DNA of 64,000 nt, from contig JAKOVH010000013.1 of assembly GCA_029782145.1 (NCBI GenBank), forward strand, positions 124,001-188,000. Reading direction: 5' to 3'. The stretch comes from Actinomycetes bacterium (lineage in GTDB: Bacteria > Actinomycetota > Acidimicrobiia > Acidimicrobiales > Acidimicrobilacustridaceae). The notes beneath the pieces are model-generated. The model saw only the letters and a list, made by a program, of their open reading frames with translations. It did no database searches and was not told the origin of the DNA. A program made the translations under genes and the position numbers. Shown here one piece after another: positions 37,006-50,343 of the stretch. Numbering within the stretch: position 1 is the stretch's first letter; each line of letters begins with the position of its first letter.

Positions 37006-37050
37006 AGCTGGTTCCGAACGTTCCGGTTCCCGGAACGTTCGGAACCAGCT
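37006..37050. repeat. family B intergenic palindrome, copy 1
   Basis: Perfect 21-base arms (37006-37026 and 37030-37050) with a 3-base loop. The left arm starts AGCTGGTTCCGAACG. It sits between the convergent 3' ends of the peroxiredoxin and DUF4032 genes, as expected of a bidirectional terminator, but without a T-tract. Confidence 0.9.
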
Positions 37051-45224: not shown

Positions 45225-45230
45225 AGGAGG
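45225..45230 (+). promoter_or_regulatory. Shine-Dalgarno site of lpd
   Basis: AGGAGG, 8 bases before ACG at 45239. Its last G is also the first base of GTG 45230, so that GTG is unlikely to be the start. Confidence 0.55.
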
Positions 45231-45238
45231 TGGTCCCC

Positions 45239-46645
45239 ACGGCTGAGAACCATGACGTCGTCATCATCGGTGGAGGCCCCGCGGGCTACGCCGCCGCCCT
45301 GTACGGCGCCTCTGCCGGGCTCGACATCGCCATGGTCGAGAAGGCCAAGGTCGGGGGCACCTGCCTGCACGCCGGCTGCATCCCGGCCAAGGAGCTGCTG
45401 GAGACGGCGGCCGTCAGGCGGGCCATCGTCGGCTCGGCGCGCTTCGGGCTGGCCACGAGCGAGCCGGTGCTCGACTTCTCGGTCACCCAGCAGCGCAAGC
45501 AGCAGGTCATCGACGAGCTGTTCACCGGCCTGTCGGGGCTGCTGGAGCGGCGCAAGGTCACCGTCTACGACGGCGTCGGGAGCCTCCACGCCGACCACCT
45601 GGTGCGCGTCCGCGGGGGTGCCTCCGGCGAGGTCGAGCTGCACGGCACCCACGTGCTGTTGGCGTCGGGCTCGGTGCCGCGTACCATCCCCGGCTTCGAG
45701 GTCGACGGCAGCCGGGTCATCACCTCCGACGAGCTGCTCTCCCTGCAGAAGCTGCCCGCCTCGGCGGTGGTCATCGGCGGGGGTGCCATCGGCTGCGAGT
45801 TCGCCTCGATGATGGCCGACCTCGGCACCGAGGTCACCATCCTCGAGGCGCTGCCCAAGATCCTGCCGGGCTGCGACGACGACATCACGCGGGTCGTCCT
45901 GCGGTCGTTCAAGAGCCGGGGCATCGACGTCCGCACGGGCGTGAGCGTGCACGGCCACGAGCCCCACGACTGGGACGGAGGCACCAAGGTGCGCTTCGGC
46001 GACGGTGAGTCGCTCGACGTCGAGACCGTGGTCGTGTCCGTCGGCCGCCGCCCGCTCTCCGACGAGCTGGGCCTCGACGGCACCAAGGTCGAGGTCACCG
46101 ACCGGGGCCACGTCGTCGTCGACGACTGGTGCCGCACCGCCGAGCCGGGGGTCTACGCCCTCGGTGACCTGATCGCCACGCCGGCGCTGGCCCACGTCGG
46201 CTTCGCCGAGGGCATCCTCGTCGTGCAGGACATCCTGGGCGAGGACCCCGTGCCGGTCGACTACGGCCGGGTGCCGTGGTGCATCTACTGCCATCCCGAG
46301 GTCAGCTTCGTCGGCCACTCCGAGGCGTCGGCGAAGGACGCGGGGTTCGAGGTGGTGGTGAGCAAGCACCGCTTCACCGGCAACGGTCGGGCCAAGATCC
46401 TCGGCGAGACCGAGGGCATGGTGAAGGTCATCGCCGAGAAGCGCCCCGACGGCACCGGTGGCCGGCTCCTCGGCGTGCACATGGTCGGCCCCTGGGTCAC
46501 CGAGCAGCTCGGCCAGGCCTACCTGGCGGTGAACTGGGAGGCCAACGTCGAGGAGGTCGCCCAGTTCATCCAGCCGCATCCCAGCCTCAGCGAGCTGTTC
46601 GGGGAGAGCGTGCTCGCCCTGACCGGCCGATCCCTGCACGCCTGA
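45239..46645 (+). CDS. lpd: dihydrolipoyl dehydrogenase (E3)
   Basis: 468 aa from the proposed start. Flavoprotein that reoxidises dihydrolipoyl groups. FAD site DVVIIGGGPAGYAAALYGA, redox disulfide GGTCLHAGCIPAKELLE, NAD site AVVIGGGAIGCEFASMM, second FAD site PGVYALGDLIATP and the C-terminal QPHPSLSELFGES (active-site His-Glu) are all intact. Start: ACG at 45239 gives the expected AENHDVV N-terminus and good spacing to AGGAGG; GTG at 45230 would add three residues but overlaps the site. First gene of the lpd-E2-lipBA unit. Confidence 0.95.
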   Translation, partial: TAENHDVVIIGGGPAGYAAALYGASAGLDIAMVEKAKVGGTCLHAGCIPAKELLETAAVRRAIVGSARFGLATSEPVLDFSVTQQRKQQVIDELFTGLSGLLERRKVTVYDGVGSLHADHLVRVRGGASGEVELHGTHVLLASGSVPRTIPGFEVDGSRVITSDELLSLQKLPASAVVIGGGAIGCEFASMMADLGTEVTILEALPKILPGCDDDITRVVLRSFKSRGIDVRTGVSVHGHEPHDWDGGTKVRFGDGESLDVETVVVSVGRRPLSDELGLDGTKVEVTDRGHVVVDDWCRTAEPGVYALGDLIATPALAHVGFAEGILVVQDILGEDPVPVDYGRVPWCIYCHPEVSFVGHSEASAKDAGFEVVVSKHRFTGNGRAKILGETEGMVKVIAEKRPDGTGGRLLGVHMVGPWVTEQLGQAYLAVNWEANVEEVAQFIQPHPSLSELFGESVLALTGRSLHA

Positions 46646-46808: not shown

Positions 46809-48377
46809 ATGGCCGAGATCCAGCTGCCCCAACTCGGTGAGTCGGTCACCGAGGGGACGATCACGAAGTGGTTCAAGCAGGTCGGTGAGACCGTGACGGA
46901 GGACGAGGTGCTGTTCGAGGTCTCGACCGACAAGGTCGACTCCGAGGTGCCCTCACCGGTGTCGGGCGTGCTCACCGAGATCCGGGTGCCCGAGGGGGAG
47001 ACCGTCGACGTGGGCACGGTGATCGCCGTCGTCGGCGACGGCTCCGCCACCGAGGCCCCCGCCCCCGCCGCCGAGCCGGAGGCCGCCCCTCCCTCCGCCG
47101 AGCCGGTGCCTGCCGCCCCGGCGCCCTCGCCCGAGCCGGAGGCCACGGCGCCCGAGCCGGCCGAGCCCACGGCGCCCGCCCCTCCGGCTCCGACTCCGGC
47201 TCCCGCTCCGGCGGCCCCTGCCCCCGCGCCTGCGGCGGCCACTCCCGCGCCCGCCACTCCCGCCCCTGCCCCTGCTCCCGTCGATCAGGCTCCGGCGCCG
47301 GTGGCGGCCTCGCCCGCGCCGGCCGAAGCGGCGCCCGCCGAGGTCACCGCGGGCAAGCTGCTCTCGCCGATCGTGCGCCAGCTCATCAACGACTACGGCG
47401 TCGACCCCGCCACCCTCACCGGCACCGGTGCCGGTGGCCGCATCACCCGAGGCGACGTCGAGCAGGCCATCCGGTCCGGTGTGGCGACCAGCCCTGCCGC
47501 GGCTCCGGCGCCCGCGACCCCGCCCGCCCCGCAGGCCGAGGCTGCACCGGCGCCCGTTCCCCAGCCGGAGGCTGCGCCCGCGCCTGCGCCTGCGCCCGCT
47601 TCGCAACCCGCCGCCCCGCCTGCGGCGCCGGCCCGACGGGCCGCACCGACGCCTCGCAGCGGCACCGGCGACACCTTCGAGCCGTTGAACAACATCCGCC
47701 GGCGCACCGGTGAGCACATGGTGATGTCGAAGCAGACGTCGCCGCACGCCTACACGATCGTCGAGGTCGACTACGAGAACGTCGAGCGGGTGCGCCGCCG
47801 CCACCGGGAGAGCTTCCGCGAGCAGGAGGGCTTCGGGCTCACCTACCTGCCGTTCATCTCCCGGGCCGTCATCGACGCCTTGCGGGACTTCCCCCACATG
47901 AACGCCTCCGTCGGCGACGGCGAGCTGGTGGTGCACAACTACGTGAACCTCTCCATCGCCGTCGACCTCGACTTCGAGGGCCTCCTGGCCCCGGTCGTCC
48001 ACGAGGCCGACGACAAGCGGCTGCGGGCCATCGCCCGCGACATCAACGACCTCGCCGCCCGGGCCCGCACCAAGAAGCTCTCGGCCGACGACATCACGGG
48101 CGGCACCTTCACCCTGTCGAACTCCGGGTCGTTCGGCAGCTACCTCGTGCTGCCGATCATCAACCAGCCCCAGGTCGCCATCCTCTCCACCGACGGCGTG
48201 CACCGACGCCCCGTCGTGGTCACCGACGCCGACGGTGGCGAGTCGATCGCCATCCACTCGGTCGGCCTGCTCGCCATGAGCTGGGACCACCGGGCCTTCG
48301 ACGGCGGCTACGCCGCGGCCTTCCTGCGGGAGGTCAAGGAGATCCTCGAGACCCGGGACTGGGAGGCGGAGCTGTAG
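46809..48377 (+). CDS. 2-oxoacid dehydrogenase E2 (dihydrolipoyl acyltransferase)
   Basis: 522 aa. One lipoyl domain (about residues 1-80; lipoyl Lys in STDKVDSE), then a long Ala/Pro-rich linker of about 95 residues, an E1/E3-binding domain (LLSPIVRQLINDYGVDPATL), a second linker and the catalytic core (about 300-522). The core ends with SWDHRAFDGGYAAAFL, which has the catalytic His and Asp. Could serve pyruvate, 2-oxoglutarate or branched-chain complexes; no E1 is nearby. ATG at 46809 fits the domain start with GGAGGA 11 bases upstream. The same frame is open and codon-biased for 53 codons further upstream (from TTG 46650), a possible N-terminal extension. Confidence 0.93.
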   Translation: MAEIQLPQLGESVTEGTITKWFKQVGETVTEDEVLFEVSTDKVDSEVPSPVSGVLTEIRVPEGETVDVGTVIAVVGDGSATEAPAPAAEPEAAPPSAEPVPAAPAPSPEPEATAPEPAEPTAPAPPAPTPAPAPAAPAPAPAAATPAPATPAPAPAPVDQAPAPVAASPAPAEAAPAEVTAGKLLSPIVRQLINDYGVDPATLTGTGAGGRITRGDVEQAIRSGVATSPAAAPAPATPPAPQAEAAPAPVPQPEAAPAPAPAPASQPAAPPAAPARRAAPTPRSGTGDTFEPLNNIRRRTGEHMVMSKQTSPHAYTIVEVDYENVERVRRRHRESFREQEGFGLTYLPFISRAVIDALRDFPHMNASVGDGELVVHNYVNLSIAVDLDFEGLLAPVVHEADDKRLRAIARDINDLAARARTKKLSADDITGGTFTLSNSGSFGSYLVLPIINQPQVAILSTDGVHRRPVVVTDADGGESIAIHSVGLLAMSWDHRAFDGGYAAAFLREVKEILETRDWEAEL

Positions 48378-48379
48378 CC

Positions 48380-50161
48380 ATGGCGGCTCCCGGCGCGCCG
48401 GGGCCGGCGAGCTCGGCGCGCCCGCTGCGGGTGCGCTGGCTCGGCACGGTGCCCTACGGCGAAGCCTCCGACCTGCAGCACGCCCTGTTCGAGCACGGCC
48501 GCGACGACTGGCTGCTGCTGCTCGAGCACCCGCACGTCTACACGCTCGGGGCTCGCGCCGACCTCGCCAACGTGCTGGTGCCGCCGGAGTCGGTGGGCGC
48601 CGAGCTGGTGCGGGCCGACCGGGGCGGCGACGTCACCTACCACGGGCCGGGGCAGCTGGTCGGCTACCCGATCCTCAGCGTGCCGGGCAAGCGCGGCGGC
48701 GGCATGGCCGACACGGTGGCCTACGTCCGCTCCGTGGAGCAGCTCGTCATCGACACGCTCGCCGACCTGGGCCTGCCCCACGCCGGGCGCCTGCACGACT
48801 ACCCCGGCGTGTGGGTCGAACCGGGCTCCGACCACCCCCGCAAGATCGCCGCCATCGGCGTGCGGCTCACCCGGGGTCGCTCGATGCACGGGTTCGCCCT
48901 CAACGTGGCGCCCGACATGTCGATGTTCGGCCACATCGTGCCGTGCGGCATCGCCGACAAGGCGGTCACCTCCCTCGCCGGCGAGGGCATCCAGGCGTCG
49001 ATGCGCGACGTCGTCGACGCTCTGGTGGCCCGGGCGGTCGAGCGGTGGGCGCCCGCCGGGAGGCAGTGGGAGCGGGCCGACGTGGTGTGGCGCGACGCCG
49101 CCCGTGCCGACGACGGCCTGGCGCCGTTCAGCCGGGGCCTGGGAGCGGGGGCACCGGTGCGGACGGCCGCCGACCACGCCGCGGGCCGGCCGACGGCGAG
49201 CGAGGTGGCCGTCGAGGGGCCCTCGCTGCGGCTGCGCGGCCGGTTGGCCGAGGCGGGCGTCAGCGACGGCCTGGCCGTGGCGGCCCGCAAGCCCGAGTGG
49301 CTGCGAGCGCGGGTGCACCTGGGCGCCAAGCCGCTGGAGGTGAAGCGCACCCTGCGCGACCTCGACCTGGTGACGGTGTGCGAGGAGGCCGGCTGCCCCA
49401 ACCTCTCGGAGTGCTGGGCCGACGGCACGGCCACGTTCATGATCAACGGCGAGCGCTGCACCCGGGCGTGCGGCTTCTGCCTGGTCGACACCCGCCGCCC
49501 CGAGCCGCTCGACCCCACCGAGCCCGACCGGGTCTCCGAGGCCGTGGCGCGGATGGGCCTCGGCTTCGCCGTCATCACCACCGTGGCCCGCGACGACCTG
49601 CCCGACGAGGGCGCCGGCGCCATGGCCGCCACCATCGAGGCGATCCGGCGCCGCACGCCGGAGGTGCAGCTCGAGGTGCTCATCTCCGACTGCCGGGGGC
49701 GCGCCGAAGCGCTCGACGCCATCTTCGCCGCTCGCCCCGACGTGCTGAACCACAACGTCGAGACGGTGCCGAGGCTCCAGCGGGCGGTCCGGCCGTCGGC
49801 CGGCTACGCCCGCTCGCTGGCGGTGCTGTCGCGGGCCCGGCGGGCCGGGCTCACCACCAAGTCCGGCCTGGTCGTCGGCATTGGGGAGACCGACGACGAG
49901 ATCCTCGCCATCCTGGCCGACCTGGCCGGCGTCGGCGTCGAGGTCGTCACCATCGGGCAGTACCTGCGGCCCACCTCGCACCACCTGCCGGTGCACCGGT
50001 GGGTCACCCCCGAGCAGTTCGCCGAGTACCGAGCGGCAGGGGAGCGCATGGGCATCGCCCACGTGGAGTCGAGCCCTCTCACCCGCTCGAGCTACCACGC
50101 TCGCCAGGCGGCCGCCGCCGCCGCCCGCCCCCGCTCCCTCGCGGCCGAGCCCTCCGCCTGA
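48380..50161 (+). CDS. lipB-lipA: LipB-LipA fusion: octanoyltransferase plus lipoyl synthase
   Basis: 593 aa in one uninterrupted frame, 2 bases after the E2 stop. Residues about 15-232 are LipB: RGGDVTYHGPGQLVGYPIL, Lys in RKIAAIGVRL (about 155) and catalytic Cys in HIVPCGIADKAV (about 189). A linker of about 60 residues follows. Residues about 295-590 are LipA: auxiliary cluster CEEAGCPNLSEC (from 334), radical-SAM CTRACGFC (360, 364, 367), NHNVETVPRL, LVVGIGETDDE and the C-terminal RSSYHA serine ligand. Both halves are complete. The protein would transfer octanoate to E2 and then insert sulfur. An in-frame GTG at 49277 could give free LipA, but I see no ribosome site for it. Confidence 0.93.
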   Translation: MAAPGAPGPASSARPLRVRWLGTVPYGEASDLQHALFEHGRDDWLLLLEHPHVYTLGARADLANVLVPPESVGAELVRADRGGDVTYHGPGQLVGYPILSVPGKRGGGMADTVAYVRSVEQLVIDTLADLGLPHAGRLHDYPGVWVEPGSDHPRKIAAIGVRLTRGRSMHGFALNVAPDMSMFGHIVPCGIADKAVTSLAGEGIQASMRDVVDALVARAVERWAPAGRQWERADVVWRDAARADDGLAPFSRGLGAGAPVRTAADHAAGRPTASEVAVEGPSLRLRGRLAEAGVSDGLAVAARKPEWLRARVHLGAKPLEVKRTLRDLDLVTVCEEAGCPNLSECWADGTATFMINGERCTRACGFCLVDTRRPEPLDPTEPDRVSEAVARMGLGFAVITTVARDDLPDEGAGAMAATIEAIRRRTPEVQLEVLISDCRGRAEALDAIFAARPDVLNHNVETVPRLQRAVRPSAGYARSLAVLSRARRAGLTTKSGLVVGIGETDDEILAILADLAGVGVEVVTIGQYLRPTSHHLPVHRWVTPEQFAEYRAAGERMGIAHVESSPLTRSSYHARQAAAAAARPRSLAAEPSA

Positions 50162-50179: not shown

Positions 50180-50226
50180 AAGCTGGTTCCCAGCGTTGCG
50201 CATCCCGCAACGTCTGGAACCAGCTT
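50180..50226. repeat. family B intergenic palindrome, copy 2
   Basis: Arms of 21 bases (50180-50200 and 50206-50226; left arm AAGCTGGTTCCCAGCGTTGC) with a 3-base internal mismatch and a 5-base loop. It begins 19 bases after the lipBA stop. Confidence 0.88.
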
Positions 50227-50240
50227 TCCGGCCCCTACCG

Positions 50241-50287
50241 AAGCTGGTTCCCAGCGTTGCGGATCCCGCAACGTCTGGAACCAGCTT
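50241..50287. repeat. family B intergenic palindrome, copy 3
   Basis: Nearly identical to copy 2 (one loop base differs), with arms 50241-50261 and 50267-50287, 14 bases downstream of it. The tandem pair fills most of the gap before the M24 peptidase gene. Confidence 0.88.
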
Positions 50288-50343
50288 CCCGGACCCTGCT
50301 CCAGGTGGGCGAGCACGGGTTCGGGGGGTGCACGGGCGGCCGG

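Follow-up and report, generated by a model that had tools for sequence, protein, structure and literature searches.

A natural fusion of the octanoyltransferase LipB and the lipoyl synthase LipA encoded in one reading frame across the class Acidimicrobiia

Introduction

The chemistry of the octanoyltransferase LipB and the lipoyl synthase LipA is established (PMC9307952; PMC12246082), including the Cys/Lys catalytic dyad and the other catalytic residues of LipB (PMC9307952), and the stand-alone LipB (PDB 1w66) and LipA (PDB 5exk) of Mycobacterium tuberculosis (Mtb) share their fold and catalytic residues with the corresponding halves of the protein described here. In the other Actinomycetota examined, the two enzymes are encoded by separate, usually adjacent genes, whereas in the window (the whole 64,000-nucleotide stretch of DNA that was analyzed) they are united in a single chain that includes an additional conserved linker segment. 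Gene fusion has joined lipoate-assembly parts elsewhere in evolution, as in the Lpl(AB) and Lpl(BA) ligases (PMC10332631); these, however, unite two parts of one ligase, whereas the window fusion unites two successive enzymes. The same paper surveys the distribution of LipB and LipA, and the sections consulted make no mention of a LipB-LipA fusion (PMC10332631).

A sister architecture, LplA-LipA, is represented by the curated NCBIfam family NF053790 (bifunctional lipoate--protein ligase/lipoyl synthase, LplA_LipA_fuse), in which an attachment enzyme of the LplA/LipB fold precedes LipA, as in the window protein. The N-terminal half of that family is an LplA-type ligase, whereas that of the window protein is a LipB transferase with a Cys/Lys dyad, and the window protein scores 356 bits against the 800 required for membership, matching the LipA part only (profile positions 331-605). 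A first-pass annotation of the locus had named no characterized example of a LipB-LipA fusion; this fits the open-licence literature, wherein we found no description of one, but it has to be qualified by the existence of the curated LplA-LipA family. The class-wide distribution of the LipB-LipA fusion likewise appears to be undescribed in the open-licence literature, and the kind of arrangement, a fusion of successive enzymes, is ordinary.

One Frame, Two Enzymes

Positions 48380-50161 of the forward strand hold one 593-codon frame, which runs from an ATG at 48380 to a stop codon at 50159-50161 and contains no internal stop. Profile searches against NCBIfam assign the first ~220 residues to LipB and the last ~290 to LipA, both above curated cut-offs, and the Pfam domains follow in the order LplA-B_cat, LIAS_N, Radical_SAM; the open frame and the scores of both halves thus bear out the earlier claim of a LipB-LipA fusion in a single 593-residue frame. 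The catalytic residues that had been claimed for both halves are also all present. The LipB domain (residues 11-226; 48410..49057, + strand) exceeds the NCBIfam equivalog cut-offs over residues 11-220 (PRK14345, 185.9 bits against 155; TIGR00214, 142.7 against 83.55) and contains the dyad of Cys189 (48944..48946, + strand; equivalent to Mtb C176) and Lys155 (48842..48844, + strand; equivalent to Mtb K142), each invariant in 191 distinct fused proteins, together with the RGG loop (R81-G82-G83), which is likewise invariant among the fused proteins. The LipA domain with its N-terminal arm (residues 282-585; 49223..50134, + strand) exceeds the equivalog cut-offs over residues 301-582 (TIGR00510, 348.3 against 310.25; PRK05481, 388.2 against 203) and carries an auxiliary [4Fe-4S] cluster motif (C334-X4-C339-X5-C345; 49379..49414, + strand), a radical-SAM cluster motif (C360-X3-C364-X2-C367; 49457..49480, + strand), and an RSSY motif (R569-S570-S571-Y572; 50084..50095, + strand), in which all six cysteines as well as R569 and S571 are 100% conserved. 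Judged by these residues and profiles, the LipB half would be an octanoyl-ACP:lipoyl-domain transferase and the LipA half a sulfur-inserting lipoyl synthase. The case also carries a warning for annotation, in that a one-family name given to the fused protein would hide its other half.

The Linker

The linker had been put at about 60 residues, a figure that lies between two measures: ~80 residues separate the edges of the sequence profiles (221-301), whereas ~50-55 separate the structural edges, LipB aligning to residue 226-231 and LipA from 282. The structural linker is the shorter because part of the intervening sequence is an N-terminal arm that is present in Mycobacterium LipA too, the structure alignment identifying segment 284-294 (RLxGRLAEAGV) as its counterpart. 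The first part of the linker (residues 231-257; 49070..49150, + strand) carries the motif (E/D)RxDVxWR...DL(S/A)xF(S/T)RGxGxG, has a pN/pS of 0.21, and is conserved over most of the class (F250 is kept in 92% of fused proteins, R252 in 90%, and L247 in 84%); the C-termini of unfused LipB did not show this motif. The second part (residues 258-282; 49151..49225, + strand) varies in length between species and is nevertheless still translated, since its pN/pS is 0.38 with a bias toward codon position 3. Measured between fixed points in the first 144 loci, linker length ranges from 39 to 116 residues (median 71), and no length variant breaks the frame. Comparison of close pairs gives pN/pS values of 0.17 (LipB), 0.27 (linker), and 0.13 (LipA); changes are most frequent at third codon positions, which take 61% of those in the linker, and the GC3 of the linker (0.96) is like that of the domains. 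By these codon statistics, the linker is translated and under purifying selection.

Distribution and Origin

Searches covered 61 relatives, 394 class genomes, 296 phylum genomes, and contigs of further genomes; the DNA of 237 loci was examined, with some genomes occurring in both collections. Every one of the 214 Acidimicrobiia loci in which both halves were resolved has one stop-free frame (191 distinct protein segments), and among coded genomes the fused loci span 45 family codes and 96 genera, including ~1 Mb and single-contig genomes. By comparison, the 23 loci examined from 14 other actinomycetotal families include no joined LipB-LipA: lipB and lipA are separate frames in 17, mostly with lipB directly upstream, and six have no lipB nearby, although these loci were partly picked for adjacency, such that the rate of lipB-lipA adjacency is a biased estimate. 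The fusion is therefore far more widespread than the single locus suggested, extending through the whole class Acidimicrobiia, soil and water bacteria for which it constitutes a genomic marker.

Apparent split genes in class relatives, seen as two matches per genome, were rejected upon inspection as a single open frame reported twice, a consequence of the variable linker. A further 80 class genomes give mostly two local matches, and the paired rows listed share their open-frame length, contig-broken cases excepted. Outside the class, a long LipA-containing frame (G607, L234) resembled a fusion and contains no LipB.

In a tree of the LipA half, all fused rows lie on one side of a branch (SH-aLRT 83); a tree of the LipB half needs two label changes and is compatible with one origin; and a concatenated LipB+LipA tree, computed without three long-branch rows, places the fused rows on one side of a branch with one change (SH-aLRT 98). 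Given this single clade, the simplest account is that the genes were joined once, at the base of the Acidimicrobiia, and the fusion looks old and kept by selection.

Several bins hold additional copies. Within the class, genome G108 carries, besides a fused copy, a 5-kb contig (L247, G108:C83) on which a separate lipB and lipA (47-48% identity) overlap and are accompanied by an E2 gene of their own; in genome G181, with 6% contamination, a fused frame is truncated at a contig end, and a stand-alone LipB (L249, G181:C255) is also present, 65% identical to the LipB half of the window protein and with an unrelated frame behind it. Both exceptions are most likely due to foreign contigs in the metagenome bins. 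Two fused copies occur in one bin in two cases (G425:C101 and G425:C47; G379:C85 and G379:C3), which may reflect paralogues or mixed strains.

Predicted Structure

An AlphaFold2 model of the window protein, computed with 94 fused sequences, reached a mean pLDDT of 91.0 and a pTM of 0.92, and that of a 55%-identical homologue (L052) with its own 41-row alignment reached 90.8 and 0.91; the two runs share alignment rows and method and amount to one prediction seen twice, judged by pLDDT, pTM, and structure alignment. For two freely oriented domains of such size, a much lower pTM would be expected. The LipA half (model residues 282-585) matches Mtb LipA 5exk with a Z of 44.9 and 48% identity, and the LipB half matches Mtb LipB 1w66 with a Z of 29.5 and 46% identity. 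In both models, the alignment of LplA-family ligase structures covers the LipB half and continues into one and the same LipA helix (residues 476-488 in the window protein, P0001; 448-461 in the homologue), and the predicted packing is therefore the same in the two. The predicted contact puts this LipA helix where LplA-family ligases have a helix of their own, and the models suggest that the halves are probably packed against each other.

Proposed Function and Alternative Explanations

We consider it probable (roughly 85%) that the locus encodes a bifunctional, one-chain lipoate-assembly enzyme, which most likely arose a single time, when neighboring lipB and lipA genes were joined in the acidimicrobiian ancestor, and has been kept since. 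In the mechanism proposed, octanoate would pass from the acyl carrier protein to Cys189 of the LipB half, with Lys155 as acid/base, and the LipB half would transfer it onto the lipoyl-domain lysine of E2, the product of the preceding gene; the LipA half, joined to LipB by the linker and probably packed against it, would then insert two sulfurs by radical-SAM chemistry, those being supplied by the auxiliary cluster at C334/C339/C345. The fusion would set a 1:1 enzyme ratio and would hold the second enzyme beside the product of the first. In view of the predicted packing and of the E2 gene immediately upstream, the direct hand-over of octanoyl-E2 from LipB to LipA that the first-pass annotation had envisaged is plausible, and any benefit of the fusion would lie in this hand-over or in the 1:1 supply. 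A more elaborate version, in which the fusion froze a fixed LipB-LipA assembly with a class-specific linker such that a single lipoyl domain is served by both active sites before it departs, is speculative and on balance unlikely. The same docking, with a LipA helix seated on the LipB face that in ligases is occupied by a helix of their own, may also form transiently in bacteria whose LipB and LipA are separate. Joint action of LipB and LipA as a complex on the lipoyl domain is difficult to probe while the enzymes are separate, and a natural, class-wide fusion is a ready-made two-enzyme unit for structures and for kinetic tests of hand-over.

The fusion might alternatively be real but neutral, i.e., a chance joining that was fixed in the ancestor and is not easily re-split, with neither hand-over nor any special arrangement. 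We regard this as a genuine possibility, although not the favored one: most of the other actinomycetotal loci examined already have lipB next to lipA, so that few changes suffice for fusion, and any advantage is hypothetical; on the other hand, the fusion has been kept without clear loss across all 45 family codes, even in the ~1 Mb genomes, the linker segment is conserved in its sequence rather than merely in its presence, and the predicted packing of the halves is confident. That an assembly or sequencing artefact joined two genes has a negligible chance of being correct, even though the window's genome is a 34-contig draft. The hidden stop or frameshift that had been named as a possible refutation was looked for and none was found; every resolved class relative has the same joined frame, and conservation of this frame in hundreds of genomes that were assembled separately, several of which are single-contig (e.g., G038, G042, G081, G314, and G386), rules such an artefact out for practical purposes.

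A further alternative is that the frame yields two products, with LipA translated also or mainly from a start codon within the linker, while the joining itself is incidental. Potential starts are plentiful, as every fused gene has an in-frame GTG or TTG between residue 221 and C334 and 173 of the 191 have an ATG there, and LipA proteins usually start near the position of residues 282-300; however, no linker start position is conserved, the commonest ATGs encode residues 308 and 325 within LipA, positions frequently occupied by Met, and the linker codons are under purifying selection, with the frame kept through many length changes. Initiation at GTG 49277, which had been suggested specifically, fared poorly, in that a start codon stands there in only 23 of 191 proteins, none with a Shine-Dalgarno sequence, and the 191 distinct fused proteins offer no in-frame linker start codon that is conserved with a Shine-Dalgarno sequence. 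Internal initiation is accordingly quite improbable; proteolytic cleavage may still follow translation of the chain.

Genomic Context

The gene directly upstream encodes an E2 dihydrolipoyl acyltransferase with one lipoyl domain (46809..48377, + strand; Pfam Biotin_lipoyl, E3_binding, and 2-oxoacid_dh), the stop codon of which lies 2 bp before the ATG of the fused gene; its best NCBIfam match is SucB_Actino (398 of 423 bits, below the cut-off), and it is likely the substrate of the fused enzyme. Of 157 testable class loci, 121 have an E2 gene immediately upstream; in the other 36, none was seen upstream. The E2 gene of the window is preceded by lpd, encoding dihydrolipoyl dehydrogenase (E3; 45230..46645, + strand; TIGR01350 above cut-off), and E3 lies upstream in 46 of 48 testable loci.

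The window's genome was found to contain no further LipA or LipB. The same genome does encode a 203-codon LplA/LipM-like protein (G000:C2:574961-575563, locus L239), which scores above the Pfam cut-off and below every NCBIfam cut-off and may act as a small ligase or as a second transferase; given this LplA-like protein, LipB may not be the sole route of octanoylation. Within the window, no Rfam families were found, and promoter and terminator scans were empty. Directly downstream of the fused gene lie two copies of one near-palindrome of ~48 bp (AAGCTGGTTCCCAGCGTTGCG..CGCAACGTCTGGAACCAGCTT; 50180-50227 and 50241-50288), with a diverged copy at 37008-37048. The rest of the genome holds one further exact match to the core, at C22:633300; within the window, the core has six matches against 0.08 expected.
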